Shown piece after piece: positions 26,276-32,898 of a stretch of DNA of 47,770 nt (within the stretch, counting starts at the first letter, position 1; every line of letters begins with the position of its first letter). Origin of the DNA: Armatimonadota bacterium (GTDB taxonomy: Bacteria; Armatimonadota; Hebobacteria; GCA-020354555; CP070648). Both the position numbers and the translations under genes were made by a program. The DNA lies in contig DATLAK010000044.1 of the NCBI GenBank assembly GCA_035527535.1, forward strand, positions 1 through 47,770, in the 5' to 3' direction. The notes under the pieces are model-generated. The model ran no database searches. It was not told the origin of the DNA and saw only the letters and a list, made by a program, of their open reading frames with translations.

Positions 26276-27153
26276 CCGCCGGGGTAGCACGCCGCGAAGA
26301 ACTCGCGCAGCGTCCCCGCAAACTCGGCGCGCGTGAGCTGGGTCCAGGTCATCTGATCGCCGTAGGAGTAGTAGAGCAGCACCCGCCCCTCGAACTCCGC
26401 CAGGTCCGGGTCCGAGGCATTGCAGCACTCCGCATGTCCCGGCGCGAGGATGGGGTTGCGCGGGCTCGGCTGCCATTGTCGGAGATCCCGGGAGCGCGTC
26501 ATGAAGGTCTCGAACGCCCAGTGCGGCGTACGCCGTTCCAGATACATCATGTAGTACCAGCCGTCCACATGGCGCAGGCACGGGCACGCGGTATAGCGAT
26601 CGCTCCCGTAAACGACCTCCGGCAGCTTGCGCCAGTCAACGAGGTCGTGCGATTCCGCAAACTTGATGGTGAATGCGGGCCACCGCGGGTCGTTGCTCTC
26701 GTACGACATCACGAACCGATCCCCCGCCCGGCATACCGACTGGTTGAACAGCTGCTCGTCGGGGTTCTCGGCGATGACCACGCGCGGCTCGCTCCAGGTC
26801 ACCAGGTCACGGGAGCTGAACTCGCTTACATCGTGCCACCGGCCGTCCTGACTGCGCGCGCCATACACGTAGAGCGTATCCTGCCAGGCGAACGCCGAGG
26901 CGAGGGAGTATCCCCGGCCGAAGGTGCTCACCACGCGACCCTCGGCCAAGTCCCGCAGCTCCAGGTAATGCGCCGCCGGGTCATCGGTCGAGGGCGGCCG
27001 AATGTTGACCAGCAGCAGCCGCCGTCCCTGCCCGCCGTGAACAGAGTCGAAGGGCCACACCAAGGGCGTCGCTTCGCAGACGGGCCCGTATTTCGCCCCC
27101 GTCTTTACCAGCCCGGGCACCCCCGAGCCGCCGATCTCATCCCGTTGCGTCAT
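26272..27153 (-). CDS. Beta-propeller glycosidase-like protein (GH43/GH130-like)
   Basis: The 293-residue protein has repeated propeller-blade sequences: ATPLVWPFDSVHGGQGRRLL, SAFAWQDTLYVYGARS, EFSSRDLVTWSEPRVVI, DRFVMSYESNDPRWPAFTIK, RYTACPCLRHVDGWYYMMYL and RSRDLRQWQPSP. The repeated form (S/R)RDLxxW is typical of five-bladed GH43/32/130 propellers. I cannot assign catalytic acids, so the substrate is open. There is no signal peptide. The start at 27153 has AGGAGG five bases upstream. That ribosome site and the first nine codons are duplicated at 28653-28753. Confidence 0.68.
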   Translation of the reverse strand: MTQRDEIGGSGVPGLVKTGAKYGPVCEATPLVWPFDSVHGGQGRRLLLVNIRPPSTDDPAAHYLELRDLAEGRVVSTFGRGYSLASAFAWQDTLYVYGARSQDGRWHDVSEFSSRDLVTWSEPRVVIAENPDEQLFNQSVCRAGDRFVMSYESNDPRWPAFTIKFAESHDLVDWRKLPEVVYGSDRYTACPCLRHVDGWYYMMYLERRTPHWAFETFMTRSRDLRQWQPSPRNPILAPGHAECCNASDPDLAEFEGRVLLYYSYGDQMTWTQLTRAEFAGTLREFFAACYPGG

Positions 27154-27227
27154 CCAGTCCTCCTCGCTGGCTGCAAGCTCGGCCTACTGCTGCAGCACGA
27201 TGATGGAATCCACTTCATCCGGCGGCG
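27127..27227. repeat. 101-bp direct repeat, copy 1
   Basis: This copy spans the first codons of the GH43-like gene, its ribosome site and the tail of a GH29-like gene. It aligns without gaps to 28653-28753; the central part, about 18 bases, has diverged. Confidence 0.8.
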
Positions 27228-27332: not shown

Positions 27333-28451
27333 CTACTCTGTATAGGGTATCGGCTCCTTGCCGATGAACTCGCACTTGCGCTCGCGGTAGTAGACGAAAT
27401 CTTCCCACGAGACGTCCGGCGGCACCAGGTGATCGGTATGGGGAATGAAGCCGCCGCCGGCGAGCAGGGGCCGCAGGCGGTCGAACTCGCGGTCTATGGC
27501 CTCCTTGCCCGCGGCCAGCGCCCGCTTGTCGAAGCCGCCGCGCAGGGGAGCCCGCACACCGAACTGCTCGCGGATCTTGTAGGCGTCGGTGTGCGCCGCC
27601 TCCAGCGGGAACATGACGCTGACGCCGCCCTCGATCCATGCCGGCACCAGCTGGTGGATGTTGCCGTCGCAGTCCACCATATGGAACTCGCACCCGCACT
27701 CGCGGCGCAGGAATTCGGTGGTGCGCTTGCACTGCGGCACCGCGTACTGTTGGAACCAGCGCGGCGACACCAGCGGGCCCTTCTTGTAGCACATATCCTC
27801 CCACCACCAGCCCAGGTCCAGGCGGCATTTGCCGGCGACCCTCTCGTACACGCTGAGCTTCAGTTCGGTGAGATGGGTTATCATCTCGGCCACCCATTCG
27901 GGATCCTCGGCGATGGCGATGGAGATGTTCTCGACGCCCATCCAGTTGCGCAGCAGCCCGTAGACCGAGCCGCAGTTGGCGGCGACGGGATAGTCGGCGT
28001 CGAGGGTGCGACGGCAGCGGTCATCAATGTCATCCGGTATCCTGCCCGGCGTGTCGGGGTTGAGGCGCTCATCGCGGATGAGCTCCCAGTCCGCGCGCGT
28101 CTCCAGCGCGTGGCGCAGGTAGCGGGGGATGGACGCGCCCAGCTCGGGTTTCATCATCTCCGAGACGGCTCCGTCGAGATCCTGGACGATGACGTGGTCG
28201 CCCTTCTCCTCCAGCACCTTACGCTCGAATGCCGGGAACAGGGCAATGTTGATCCCAAGCGTGGGGCCGAAGTCCTTTTCGTCGGTGTGGAAGTAGCACT
28301 GGATGCTCCCCCAGACGCCGCCCAGGCCGGCGGGCAATCCCTCCTGCTCCCAGCGGTTGATCGTTTGCTCCCAGGCGCCGAACTCGTAATCGGGCACCCG
28401 GTCAACAGGCTCAAAGCGCAGCGTCGCCAGCAAGCGTTCCCGATGTGTCAC
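27333..28451 (-). CDS. Uroporphyrinogen decarboxylase (UROD)-family protein
   Basis: The 372-residue protein starts MTHRERLLATLRFEPVDRVP, a common opening of UROD-superfamily proteins outside haem synthesis, such as methyltransferase subunits MtaA and CmuA. Other marks are QDLDGAVSEMMKPE, VAANCGSVYGLLRNWMGVEN, KGPLVSPRWFQQYAVPQCKR, FHMVDCDGNIHQLVPAWIEG and GGGFIPHTDHLVPPDVSWED. The last two include likely metal-site Asp, Cys and His. In accessory catabolic clusters such proteins are usually of unknown substrate. It sits between the two 101-bp repeats, with its own 200-base upstream region. Confidence 0.8.
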   Translation of the reverse strand: MTHRERLLATLRFEPVDRVPDYEFGAWEQTINRWEQEGLPAGLGGVWGSIQCYFHTDEKDFGPTLGINIALFPAFERKVLEEKGDHVIVQDLDGAVSEMMKPELGASIPRYLRHALETRADWELIRDERLNPDTPGRIPDDIDDRCRRTLDADYPVAANCGSVYGLLRNWMGVENISIAIAEDPEWVAEMITHLTELKLSVYERVAGKCRLDLGWWWEDMCYKKGPLVSPRWFQQYAVPQCKRTTEFLRRECGCEFHMVDCDGNIHQLVPAWIEGGVSVMFPLEAAHTDAYKIREQFGVRAPLRGGFDKRALAAGKEAIDREFDRLRPLLAGGGFIPHTDHLVPPDVSWEDFVYYRERKCEFIGKEPIPYTE

Positions 28452-28583: not shown

Positions 28584-28679
28584 TCACGCCGAGCCACAAA
28601 GGCCCGCATGCGAAAAACTCTTCTCCGCGCCAGGATCGCTCCCCTGCCCGGCGCCGCCGATCTCATCCCGTTGTGTCAT
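28584..28679 (-). pseudogene. 5' head remnant of the GH43-like gene
   Basis: The 31-codon frame begins MTQRDEIGG, the same nine residues as the intact gene at 26272-27153. It keeps the same AGGAGG ribosome site five bases upstream, then diverges and stops at 28584. It is a displaced gene start left by the rearrangement. Confidence 0.7.
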
Positions 28680-28753
28680 CCAGTCCTCCTCGACGGGCTC
28701 CAGGCCACTCTACTGCTCCAGCACGATGATGGAATCCACTTCATCCGGCGGCG
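28653..28753. repeat. 101-bp direct repeat, copy 2
   Basis: It covers the end of the intact GH29-like gene, the short intergenic region and the start codons of a GH43-like gene, colinear with 27127-27227. About 85-90% of positions agree by eye. Confidence 0.8.
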
Positions 28754-30029
28754 CGCACGGCAGGTGGATGGTGATCCCCTCCGGCGCCGCGTCGCATCGC
28801 AGCGGCTTCCCGCCAAGCCACCGCGCCGCGCTCACGGGCTGCTCGATCCCCGGCAGCCACAATCGCTCGCCCGGCCATTCGAGAACGTGCAGGTAGATCG
28901 TCTCTCCCCTGACCACCGGCCAGCCCCACGCCTGGGCCGGCGTGCCCAGGGGGCGTGTATCATATACCGCCTCGCCGTGTTTGCGCAGCCAGGCGCCCAC
29001 CACTTCCAGTGGTCGGGCGTCTTCGGGGTTGACTGCGCCCGACGCGAGCGGCCCCTGGTTGAGCAGGTAGTTGCCCCCGCGCCCCACCACTTCCACCAGC
29101 CGCCGGATAAGGGTGAGCGCGTCCTTGCGATTGGCGTCCGTCGGATTATGGAACCATGACCCGCCGATGGTGTCACACACCTCGAACGGCCACGCCTCCG
29201 GCTGCGGCCCCCCGCCCTCAGGGAACAGTTCGTAATCGAGCACCTGGCCCTCATCGTCCAGGAACACCCGGCGGTCGAAAGTCTGCTCCGCGCCATCCCA
29301 ATCCCGCGACGATACCAATGTCTCCGGCCAGCGTGCGCGCACGAACGCCTCGACTTCCGCCATCGGGTAGCGGTAGCTCGCCCCGTTCCACGGCCCGGGG
29401 TCGAGCCAGAAACCGGCGAGGGGGCCGTAATCGGTTGCCAGCTGCTCCAACTGGGAGAGGAGGTGCTGCATGAACCGCTGCCAGGCGGCGGCATCCAGCG
29501 GCCGGCAGTCGGGATGATGCAGGTCCGGCAGCGACAGGTAGGCGAACAGGGGCATGTCGCGGCGGTGGCACTCATTAGCCAGCGAGCGCAGGAAATCGCG
29601 CCGCGGGCCGAGCATCGCCGTGTTGTAGTCGCTGTGGCGGGAGGCGTAATTGGCAAACCCCAGGTGGTGCTTGGTGGTGAAGCAGATGTAGCGCTGGCCC
29701 GCACGCTCCGCCAGGTCCACCCAGGCGGCGGGGGCAAACGACCTTCCCAGCCGGTCGAGCTCCGTCCCCAGCGACCGGGCGTCGAAATCAGCCGCCGACC
29801 ACGGCAGCGCCGGCGGCGCCAGTTCCGGGCGGTGGGTGATGATGGATTCCACCCCCCAATGGATGAACATCCCGAACTTGCGGTCCTTGAACCACTCCTG
29901 GCGCGCCGACAGCGGAGGCCGCTTCGGCGCCGCGACCCGCCGAATGCCGGGGCTTACCGGCATCCCCTCGCGGCCGTACACCCACGGCGGCTGGTCAGGC
30001 TGGCTCCCGGCTGTGGTCTTCCGCGTCAC
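28710..30029 (-). CDS. Alpha-L-fucosidase family (GH29) protein
   Basis: GH29 enzymes release alpha-L-fucose with retention. The 439-residue protein has the TIM-barrel opening QEWFKDRKFGMFIHWGVESI and TTKHHLGFANYASRHSDYN. The likely nucleophile is Asp210 in GFWLDPGPW. EVCDTIGGSWFHNPTDANRK, LVEVVGRGGNYLLNQGP and a C-terminal beta domain follow. Family members usually have KHHDGF where this has KHHLGF. There is no signal peptide, so it would act inside the cell. GTG 30029 overlaps the stop of the res remnant; ATG 29963 is an alternative start. Confidence 0.82.
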   Translation of the reverse strand: MTRKTTAGSQPDQPPWVYGREGMPVSPGIRRVAAPKRPPLSARQEWFKDRKFGMFIHWGVESIITHRPELAPPALPWSAADFDARSLGTELDRLGRSFAPAAWVDLAERAGQRYICFTTKHHLGFANYASRHSDYNTAMLGPRRDFLRSLANECHRRDMPLFAYLSLPDLHHPDCRPLDAAAWQRFMQHLLSQLEQLATDYGPLAGFWLDPGPWNGASYRYPMAEVEAFVRARWPETLVSSRDWDGAEQTFDRRVFLDDEGQVLDYELFPEGGGPQPEAWPFEVCDTIGGSWFHNPTDANRKDALTLIRRLVEVVGRGGNYLLNQGPLASGAVNPEDARPLEVVGAWLRKHGEAVYDTRPLGTPAQAWGWPVVRGETIYLHVLEWPGERLWLPGIEQPVSAARWLGGKPLRCDAAPEGITIHLPCAPPDEVDSIIVLEQ

Positions 30030-30193
30030 GGCAGCTGCGCCGCGCCGGCGAGACGATTCGACGCAATGCCGAGCCCGTCGCCAAGCGTTAAGGAGAGGTC
30101 AGCCTCGATCCGCCGCTGGCCTTTGGGCAGGGTCGCCACCCCTTCGATTGCGCGCACCTGGTATTCCTGGTTGGCGTCGAACTTGAACTGCAT
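30026..30193 (-). pseudogene. N-terminal remnant of a type III restriction (Res) subunit
   Basis: The 55-codon frame starts MQFKFDANQEYQVRAIEGVA, then the short LPKGQRRIEADLSLTLGDG, then GIASNRL and a stop. The opening and the NRL element follow the pattern of the N-terminus of type III Res helicase-nucleases. The DEAD-helicase motifs and the nuclease domain are absent. It lies just downstream of hepT. I identified it by similarity of pattern only. Confidence 0.65.
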
Positions 30194-30198
30194 CAGTT

Positions 30199-30555
30199 CT
30201 AGTCCTTGGCGGGATGCGGGGGAAGCAGCGCGTCAAGCTGCTTCGTCAGTTGCGGAAGGTAATCGCAAATCAGCACCCACATGTTCCCCTGCCGTATCTC
30301 GCCGTATTCGTGGGTGAGGACATGCCGTTGTGCGATGATGCGTCGCCAAGGGATCTCAGGATGGGCCTCCCGGAAGTCGGAAGAGACGCTGCGCGCGGCC
30401 TCGCCGATGATCTCCACCAGCCGCTCGACGGCTAGCTGAAGCTTGCGATCGCGCAGGTATCTCTCCGCATCATAGCCGGCCGCGAACTCCAGCGCGGTCT
30501 TGGCCGCATCCAGCATATCCCAGAGGTATCCCGCGTCCTTCTCGTCAAGCTGCAT
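30199..30555 (-). CDS. hepT: HepT-like HEPN toxin (DUF86)
   Basis: The 118-residue all-helical protein has the HEPN ribonuclease motif RX4HXY as Arg77-HVLT-His82-E-Tyr84, with GEAARSVSSDFREAHPEIPW before it as in DUF86 proteins. HepT cleaves RNA. In the studied Shewanella system MntA silences it by adding AMP to the Tyr of this motif. Its start overlaps the mntA end by 11 bases, so the pair is coupled. Motifs and length look intact. Confidence 0.88.
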   Translation of the reverse strand: MQLDEKDAGYLWDMLDAAKTALEFAAGYDAERYLRDRKLQLAVERLVEIIGEAARSVSSDFREAHPEIPWRRIIAQRHVLTHEYGEIRQGNMWVLICDYLPQLTKQLDALLPPHPAKD

Positions 30556-30847
30556 GGATCACCTCGCGGGTGCGCAGAATGGCATGCCGGCGGAACGGGT
30601 TCCGCAACCCCGCTTTATCTACCAGATCTACCTGTCGCCCAAGAATCGCCTCAAGCTCCTCAATCATGTCCACCCACCCGAACGCATCCCAGGGAGCGTC
30701 CTCCTCAAGCTCGACTAGTACGTCCACGTCGCTGTCCGGGTGAAAATCCTCCCGCAGCGCCGAGCCGAAGATGGATAGTTCCTTAACCCTCCACTTCCGA
30801 CAAAACCCCTCAATGCGCCCTCGATCCACCGCGATAGCAAGTGGCAT
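30545..30847 (-). CDS. mntA: MntA-like nucleotidyltransferase antitoxin
   Basis: The 100-residue protein is a minimal nucleotidyltransferase. The signature is FGSALREDFHPDSDVDVLVE (about residues 27-46), with the Gly-Ser and the paired Asp residues that bind metal. It would add AMP to the toxin HepT. The start at 30847 has GGAGG six bases upstream. Both genes of the pair are intact while the sequences on either side are truncated. Confidence 0.88.
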   Translation of the reverse strand: MPLAIAVDRGRIEGFCRKWRVKELSIFGSALREDFHPDSDVDVLVELEEDAPWDAFGWVDMIEELEAILGRQVDLVDKAGLRNPFRRHAILRTREVIHAA

Positions 30848-30884
30848 CTCTCACCTCCGCTAGATCGTCTTCAGCCGCTGTTCT

Positions 30885-30998
30885 TCACCCGCCCACCTTG
30901 CCCTCGGCAAACGTCTCCAGGAAGATCTCCCACAGTCGCTCGACCTGGTCGGCGATCAGGTCGGGTGAGGTCACAGCCACCTTCTCAGGGCCTCTCAT
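30885..30998 (-). pseudogene. N-terminal remnant of a type III DNA methyltransferase (Mod)
   Basis: The 37-codon frame starts MRGPEKVAVTSPDLIADQVE and continues RLWEIFLETFAEGKVGG to a stop. Type III Mod proteins commonly open with the same kind of helix, ending FxEGK(I/V)DF. This one stops at that point and has no methyltransferase motif. An AGGA site precedes the ATG. Bases 30999-31174 hold nothing else I can support. Confidence 0.65.
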
Positions 30999-31174
30999 GG
31001 CGGATTCCTTGGCGTACTAGAACCTGCTCCTCGGAGCAGGGCGTTGGCTTCATCTTACCGTCAACCCGCGATGCAGCGCAAGGCGCCGCGGGACCACGCG
31101 TGGTCGAGCGCAGCTCCGCGGCCAGGGCAGCCGCAGTCGCGTTGCCGGCTGAGTGGCCCGCGTGGGGTGAATGA

Positions 31175-32575
31175 TCACCCCTTCTCCGCCCGCAGGCGGG
31201 GGAAGTAGAGCCCGCGCAGCAGCTTCGCGTTGCCCGGGCTGGGGGGGCTGAAGATCATCAGCCGCGCCTGCGCCGCCAGCACCTGCTCCACCAGCTCTCG
31301 CGTCAGCGTGGGGTCGCCGTTGTTGCACAGCAGCCCGATGGTGTTGCTGATGTTGTAGCCGGAGATGAAGTAGCGCAGGTACTCCGGCTCCAGGTAGCGG
31401 CCTTCCTGCGCCTCGCCCCGGAAGTTGTAGTCGCCCCAGGTGTCAATGAACGGGCAGTAAAGGAAGGGGCACCACCCCTTGACATACCCGGCCCCCGGCG
31501 GATTGCCGGTGGTATGCAGCATCAGCATGCGGTCGTCGCCCAGTATCTCGCGGGCCTTGCGCACCAGGTAGTAGGAGCGCGCTACCGAGCCCAGGTAGAG
31601 GCCGTCGAAATAGAGCCCGTCGGGGGCGATCGCTTCGGTATTCAGCAGGCGCTTGATTTCGGCGAGATACACTTCGACGTTCTCCCCGTCCGCGACCCCG
31701 GGGATAATCATCGCCTCGGGGTACTGGTCGGCCCACGGTTCGTAGCGGCTGCCGCGGTAGAAGTAAAAGGGGGAGGCATAGACGAAAATCCGCATCCCCA
31801 ACTCGTGCGCCCAGCGAATCGTCCGCGCCCAGCGGCGGGAATGTCGCGGCTCGAACTCCATGTTCCAGCGCTTCCACCACTGCATCTCGTTGGCCGGCAG
31901 CAGGACCTTGCCCCAGCGCGCGATGTCCTCCATTTCCGGCCGCTCCCAATACGGGTGCTTGACGCTTACCGGCGGGTGGCATACCACCACCTCCTCGTCG
32001 GCGCGCTTTTGCGGATAGGGCTTGGGAGGGAAGATGCCGACCAGCAGCACGTCCGCGGGCTGCAGGAAGAAGATCGCCCCGCGCGGCGTCTCCCTCAACG
32101 CGCCGTCCCCTATCACGTAGGCGCCGAAGCCGCCGTCGGGATCGAGGCGCATGAGGTTGGCCAGCCACACGCTGCGCAGCTCAGGCTCGATGTGGCAGTG
32201 GAGGGTCACCTCGGCTCCCCGCCGCGTAGAGATGTGCAGCAGCGAATCGCAGTTGACGCGCAGGGTGGTTCTGCCCCGGTCCGCCCGCAGGATGAGGGCG
32301 CCCGAACCCTCGGCCGCCACCCGCATCCCCGTCAACCGGGCGGGCGCGACCTGTACTGTGACCACGCGCCGCGGACTCGGCAGCCGCGCACGGCAGACGA
32401 TGCGCCCCTTCGTCGCGTCAATCTCGAACACCGCCCCCGTGGTCACGATCCGGGCGCTCTGCGCACGGACCTGCGCCTCCTCCACCCCCATTCCCCACGC
32501 CGCCTGCATGAAGTTGCGCGGCGACAGCATGAGTTGCCGCTCATCCGGCGTTCTCTCGGTCCTGGTCGTTGCCAT
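31175..32575 (-). CDS. Predicted TIM-barrel glycosidase-like protein, uncharacterised
   Basis: The 466-residue protein has an N-terminal beta-rich half (about residues 40-190). The C-terminal half is barrel-like: WARTIRWAHELGMRIFVYAS, the segment YPEAMIIPGVADGENVEVYL, AIAPDGLYFDGLYLGSVARS and HTTGNPPGAGYVKGWCPFLY. The DGLYFDG strand end carries Asp residues at the place where barrel glycosidases keep catalytic acids. No signal peptide is present. I do not recognise a named family. It lies downstream of the FAD oxidoreductase on the same strand. Confidence 0.6.
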   Translation of the reverse strand: MATTRTERTPDERQLMLSPRNFMQAAWGMGVEEAQVRAQSARIVTTGAVFEIDATKGRIVCRARLPSPRRVVTVQVAPARLTGMRVAAEGSGALILRADRGRTTLRVNCDSLLHISTRRGAEVTLHCHIEPELRSVWLANLMRLDPDGGFGAYVIGDGALRETPRGAIFFLQPADVLLVGIFPPKPYPQKRADEEVVVCHPPVSVKHPYWERPEMEDIARWGKVLLPANEMQWWKRWNMEFEPRHSRRWARTIRWAHELGMRIFVYASPFYFYRGSRYEPWADQYPEAMIIPGVADGENVEVYLAEIKRLLNTEAIAPDGLYFDGLYLGSVARSYYLVRKAREILGDDRMLMLHTTGNPPGAGYVKGWCPFLYCPFIDTWGDYNFRGEAQEGRYLEPEYLRYFISGYNISNTIGLLCNNGDPTLTRELVEQVLAAQARLMIFSPPSPGNAKLLRGLYFPRLRAEKG

Positions 32576-32607: not shown

Positions 32608-32898
32608 TCATTCCGGCGTCGGCGGCTGCTCGAACAGCAGCAGGTGCATACTCCAGGGCGCGACCTCGGGCACTGCGACGCGCCGGTACCCCGGCTCCGG
32701 CGTAGGCTCAGTTTCCAACCACGCCGTCTTCCCCTCCATCGGCACATGCTCGACCTCACCCGGCGGCATCCGTAGCCGCAGCGCCAGCTCGGGCTGCGGG
32801 TCGAGCGAGGCATTGAGCACCACCACCGCCGCCCGGCCGTTCGCGCCCGCGCGCGCCCACGTGCCGCGCGACGGCCGCCTCTCGTGCCCGCGAGCTGC
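32608..32898 (-). pseudogene. C-terminal domain fragment, probably of a glycosidase
   Basis: The frame reads RAAVVVLNASLDPQPELALR, then MPPGEVEHVPMEGKTAWLE, then PEVAPWSMHLLLFEQPPTPE and a stop. This is the kind of beta-sandwich that ends many large glycosidases. No start with a ribosome site precedes the domain; upstream the frame runs into the FAD oxidoreductase gene. I take it as a detached 3' end. Confidence 0.5.

Follow-up and report, generated by a model that had tools for sequence, protein, structure and literature searches.

A probable relic of a type III restriction-modification operon retaining an intact MntA-HepT pair in an Armatimonadota genome

In Shewanella, the antitoxin MntA adenylylates the tyrosine of the RX4HXY motif of HepT and so silences this RNase covalently (PMC7641770). 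Plasmid stabilisation by a HEPN-MNT pair is on record for E. coli (PMC4621449). The class I HEPN-MNT set is defined by two Pfam families together with motifs, and equivalog cut-offs are not among its defining features (PMC7641770). HEPN genes are already known from restriction-modification (R-M) operons (PMC3710099). Embedding of defence genes in operons of R-M and other defence systems is the subject of the "guilt by embedding" preprint (Payne et al. 2024, cited in PMC12988326 and PMC11411939). PADLOC places MntA, RhuM and the TIR type of two loci described below (L077 and L084) under its PDC candidate models. Type III R-M systems consist of Mod and Res (PADLOC MTase_III and REase_III), usually in the order mod then res.

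The MntA-HepT pair reported here is carried by contig DATLAK010000044.1 (47,770 nt, analysed as a whole and called the window) of a 3.24 Mb genome that is 95.75% complete and in 192 contigs. Both proteins are full length. MntA matches PF01909 (NTP_transf_2, E=4e-15) and PADLOC PDC-S09 (E=7e-27), HepT matches PF01934 (HepT-like, E=8e-21), and the motifs GSX10DXD at MntA residue 28 and RX4HXY at HepT residue 77 are complete. With a PF01934 toxin beside a PF01909 antitoxin, the antitoxin upstream and both motifs present, the pair has the make-up of a type VII toxin-antitoxin module. It resembles Shewanella SO_3166/SO_3165 (PMC7641770, PMC4621449) in its Pfam pair, its motifs and its antitoxin-first overlapping order. 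It differs from the Shewanella HepT/MntA in scoring below the NCBIfam equivalog cut-offs of 60 (20.5 bits for HepT, NF047751; 48.1 bits for MntA, NF047752) and in lying inside an apparent R-M operon scar. Like the RhuM and TIR cargoes described below, its MntA matches a PADLOC candidate model (PDC-S09); in contrast to other embedded defence genes, the operon that carried the pair is lost, and the pair stands by itself between the scars. Elsewhere in the phylum, G124 and L039 (Armatimonadota) have the same 61% HepT match. The window's own genome holds a second MntA, 67% identical to the first (L004, G000:C19 18778-19044), with no HepT match beside it, possibly a solitary antitoxin.

The minus strand reads, in order, a Mod start, the last Mod codons with a stop, mntA, hepT, a Res start, and the last Res codons with a stop:

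30885..30998, minus strand: Mod head, a 37-codon frame; codons 4-35 match the type III Mod N-terminus (profile E=9.6e-7)
30860..30880, minus strand: Mod tail, QRLKTI and stop, in a frame different from that of the Mod head (rank 1 of 1299 stops)
30851..30858, minus strand: putative ribosome-binding site of mntA, GGAGGTGA, read from the sequence and outside the mod deletion
30545..30847, minus strand: mntA, intact antitoxin/adenylyltransferase gene (PF01909, PDC-S09, GSX10DXD)
30199..30555, minus strand: hepT, intact HEPN RNase toxin gene (PF01934, RX4HXY)
30050..30193, minus strand: Res head, about 48 codons of a type III Res N-terminus (profile E=3.5e-9)
30026..30040, minus strand: Res tail, AQLP and stop, in frame with the Res head (rank 3 of 1299 stops)

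Head and tail of res share one frame of 55 codons (30026-30193). The spacing is tight: 37 nt separate the stop of the Mod head from mntA, mntA and hepT overlap by 11 nt, and the Res head starts after a gap of 5 nt behind hepT.

The profiles that identified the two heads combine about 22 N-termini of Res and 16 of Mod, taken from intact loci, and were compared with the 879 stop-to-stop segments of the window. The next-best segments came at E=3.5 (Mod) and E=7.3 (Res), and 0 of 5000 shuffles of either head peptide reached its real score. The Res head also matches positions 1-41 of the PADLOC REase_III profile (E=0.008), the sole family-library match for either short peptide, and positions 1-40 in a profile search of the phylum (E=1e-6). 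In a plasmid collection both peptides match, weakly (E=0.4 and 5), the N-termini of adjacent mod and res genes on pTH1 of Hydrogenophilus thermoluteolus. Searches of Pfam, NCBIfam and PDB sequences with both peptides gave no usable match, and a scan of viral contigs with the Res head found no relative. Closer Res heads were sought in Planctomycetota and in the genomes of the closest HepT loci; this gave two weak matches, both to long Res frames. A Res similarity seeming to run beyond the res-head stop into the fucosidase region (residues 1-72) was dismissed on reading the alignment.

The tails were found by scoring the 1299 window stop codons that have six open codons before them against the C-termini of relatives. 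The nearest full Mod/Res lineage within the phylum is that of G080 (locus L031), in which Mod ends in QCRLKTI and Res in LASELP; the Res of G073 ends in KVSELP. In the window, the stretch that separates the mod head from mntA closes with QRLKTI and the res-head frame with GAAQLP, each before a stop. Against the Mod C-terminus of G080 (CRLKTI) the Mod tail scores 20 and the next candidate 15. The Res tail was ranked against the Res C-termini of both G080 and G073, and its match is short, at four residues. The DNA of the Mod tail is CGGCTGAAGACGATC in the window and CGGTTGAAGACGATA in G080; that of the Res tail, CTGCCGTGA, is the same in both. The mod gene of G080 (L031 9554-11070) is itself apparently frameshifted near its C-terminus, with two overlapping frames, and that locus may be decaying too or contain an assembly error.

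Taken together with the intact operons described below, these remnants make it quite probable that the locus is the relic of a chromosomal type III R-M operon, mod-mntA-hepT-res, whose embedded pair was kept for its own value or leverage. N- and C-terminal remnants of both genes are present and colinear with the intact operon, the Res C-terminus by a short match. The colinear series of head, tail, mntA-hepT, head and tail indicates complete genes that lost their bodies internally, with mntA-hepT lying between them beforehand. The pair has the position of R-M-embedded cargo: a mod 3′ end precedes mntA, and a res 5′ end lies 5 nt past hepT. Like a type III system, the locus keeps the ends of both genes in the usual order; in contrast to one, it is without any catalytic region and can neither methylate nor cut. 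A functional Mod has an N6_N4 methyltransferase domain, and here codons 4-35 and the last six are left. A functional Res has SF2 helicase and endonuclease domains, and here about 48 N-terminal codons and the C-terminal residues are left. No intact copy of this Mod or Res lineage was found in the rest of the genome, at its 95.75% completeness.

An earlier note on this DNA had described four minus-strand frames (a 37-codon mod head, mntA, hepT and a 55-codon res head), had read the short peptides as type III Mod and Res N-termini without catalytic domains, and had regarded the MntA and HepT motifs as intact. All of this is borne out by the frames, the profiles and shuffles, and the motifs. The ancestral order mod-mntA-hepT-res that it had supposed is supported by the Mod 3′ end right before mntA and the Res 5′ end right after hepT. 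Its description of a decay to two gene heads holds for the loss of both bodies but not for the 3′ ends, which are also kept.

On this reading, two separate internal deletions, of about 600 and 850 codons as judged from relatives, took the bodies of mod and res. The mod deletion is out of frame and the res deletion in frame; each gene retains its first 35-48 codons and a few codons at its end, and the embedded MntA-HepT is untouched. Transcription is presumably still driven from the DNA ahead of the mod start, and mntA-hepT would have become a stand-alone type VII module under the old operon promoter. Both this upstream region and the ribosome-binding site of mntA escaped deletion, a layout that fits expression from the old operon start. 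By analogy with Shewanella and from the motifs, MntA would add AMP to the RX4HXY tyrosine, keeping the HepT RNase silent. While the R-M system was lost, the pair may have been kept for what it offers by itself, be it defence by abortive infection, a switch under stress or addiction. A scan upstream of the mod start recognised no sigma-70-like site. About 25 bp upstream of the mod-head start lies a perfect 8-bp inverted repeat with a 2-nt spacer (31023-31040; CCTGCTCC GA GGAGCAGG on the minus strand), possibly an operator, but chance repeats are expected in GC-rich DNA.

The relic lies in a sugar catabolism neighbourhood (GH43, fucosidase, FAD oxidoreductase, GH38). In G001, a genome of the same family, the fucosidase adjoins a region matching window positions 32629-32860, and both the relic and the gene at 31175-32575 are missing. 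Thus the island is either a lineage-specific insertion or was lost in G001. No close relatives carrying this locus were found. Elsewhere in the window, a 107-bp direct repeat, about 89% identical between its copies (27121-27227 and 28647-28753) and containing the fucosidase 3′ end, flanks a URO-D-like gene (27333-28451). That gene is missing between the same neighbours in G001 and looks like an insertion with its junction duplicated.

The complete loci for which the earlier note had proposed a search do exist. In a survey of 175 MntA-HepT loci (80 taken from GTDB contigs and the others from genomes of the phylum, two partly overlapping sets), complete and tightly packed mod-mntA-hepT-res operons are found in Gemmatimonadota (L076) and Acidobacteriota (L091). 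In L076 the end of mod overlaps the mntA frame, and res follows directly after hepT. Expanded versions with further cargo are present in L085 and L079. The Mod and Res of these intact operons are of another type, distant from that of the window (PADLOC MTase_III E=6.5e-150; Pfam ResIII E=3e-8), and no genome is known in which an operon of this order is intact and has Mod and Res of the window's own lineage. In that lineage, the mod-res interval of G080 carries PHP-AAA and AlbA proteins, and related plasmid loci have GmrSD-like, DUF262 or RhuM genes between mod and res. In a quick tree of MntA and HepT with many weak forks, the window pair, the G041 pair described below and the L076-type clade stand in separate places. 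The association of the pair with type III loci therefore probably arose more than once, and MntA-HepT was likely embedded in such loci several times independently. L085 (8000-10400) and L079 (8000-9700) also have a doubled hepT-tail/res-head junction, reading intact hepT, truncated res head, extra cargo, hepT tail and full res. The doubled junction points to recombination within type III loci that exchanged or duplicated cargo.

Other relics retain their cargo as well. In G041, from another family of the phylum, the last 82 codons of the window's Mod lineage, frameshifted (E=5e-16), stand directly before an intact mntA-hepT, with no res at the locus; its mod had been a candidate for an intact gene beside mntA-hepT and was dropped when it proved to be a frameshifted relic. 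In Nitrospirota (L077 6822-8333 and L084 6670-8333) an L076-type Mod tail, VKIVGDEGIESLKIV, is followed by a CAP12/Pycsar-type TIR effector and mntA-hepT, again with no res. In G135 (L312, L324; G135:C66 12945-14308) an intact RhuM lies between a Mod tail and a res head, and another Mod tail comes after the res head; a Fic-like frame was read by eye downstream. The RhuM and TIR cargoes match PADLOC PDC-S05 and PDC-S35, and GSX10DXD and RX4HXY are present in every MntA-HepT pair that adjoins a relic. A search blind to cargo compared the Res N-terminus profile with 291 phylum genomes and gave matches in 17. All of these head long Res frames except in the window (68 aa) and in G135 (51 aa, with stops), and the cargo is intact in 2 of these 2 relics, a small number. 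Conserved stand-alone short frames, which by the earlier note would have spoken against decay, were not seen in this set, the one in G135 being a further pseudogene. Cargo retention is thus recurrent and extends beyond toxin-antitoxin pairs, with the same outcome in at least three other lineages, and this suggests that defence genes inside such operons often outlive the operon.

Why the pair remained can be read in several ways. The earlier note had favoured addiction-like retention, in which leftover HepT would poison cells that lose mntA-hepT, so that deletions could take mod and res but never the pair. Three relic lineages with intact MntA-HepT and both motifs, and the stabilisation of a plasmid in E. 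coli by a HEPN-MNT pair (PMC4621449), are in keeping with this. However, RhuM, a single gene without an antitoxin partner, is equally kept in G135, and L077/L084 have retained a TIR effector next to MntA-HepT, which argues that retention is not specific to toxin-antitoxin modules. In addition, HepT is silenced covalently (PMC7641770), and a toxin already modified need not wake after the loss of both genes. Addiction proper is a possible but doubtful explanation, and retention for an anti-phage or other benefit fits no worse. That embedded defence genes generally bring a benefit independent of their carrier is rated above addiction alone because cargo other than toxin-antitoxin pairs survives likewise. 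Alternatively, the locus could be a neutral snapshot of random operon decay, with two large deletions in two large genes and mntA-hepT merely spared so far. Mod and res, as the bulk of the ancestral operon, are the larger targets, and the locus was noticed through its intact small genes, a biased sample. Yet a rough model of random placement puts only about 2% of deletions of each size wholly within mod or res, four lineages show this outcome, and the cargo is intact in both relics that the cargo-blind search gave, which makes neutral decay rather unlikely.

The ends might also mark exchange and not decay, had mntA-hepT moved together with pieces of mod and res by homologous recombination. The doubled junctions of L085 and L079 and the res head adjoining a second Mod tail in G135 could be taken in this sense. 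A moved cassette needs neither of the outer pieces, mod head and res tail, whereas both are there and colinear, and a second copy of any piece was not found in the genome; such a transfer is improbable. That the short frames are functional by themselves, for instance by encoding a leader peptide that couples translation to that of mntA, is very unlikely. The mod head does stop 37 nt before mntA, with start region and ribosome-binding site spared, but the same frames are not genes in any relative, and their sequences are the N-termini of catalytic proteins without their domains. An assembly artefact or a chance similarity, conceivable in a genome of 192 contigs and with short peptides, is hardly credible in view of the profile and shuffle tests, the ranks of the tails and the separate relics in other genomes. 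The preferred reading remains that of an operon relic with a retained pair.

Embedded defence genes are commonly regarded as partners of their host R-M system, and a search of open papers gave no earlier account of cargo left alone between the scars of its carrier. A wider proposal, offered tentatively and with the balance somewhat against it, is that the mod-res interval is a cargo slot whose occupants routinely outlive the carrier, selection stripping the R-M bodies and leaving the cargo under the old promoter. If so, many stand-alone HepT-MntA, RhuM and TIR loci would be released cargo, recognised by the mod tail on its upstream side and the res head on its downstream side, and the partial duplications at the cargo/res junction in L085, L079 and G135 would record an exchange of cargo through homologous recombination. 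Relics reduced to their cargo are a natural deletion experiment that reveals what is retained, and stand-alone toxin-antitoxin and effector genes may originate along this route. Their scar signature, a mod C-terminus before and a res N-terminus after the cargo, is easily searched. Thus, which gene depends on which becomes something that can be counted.
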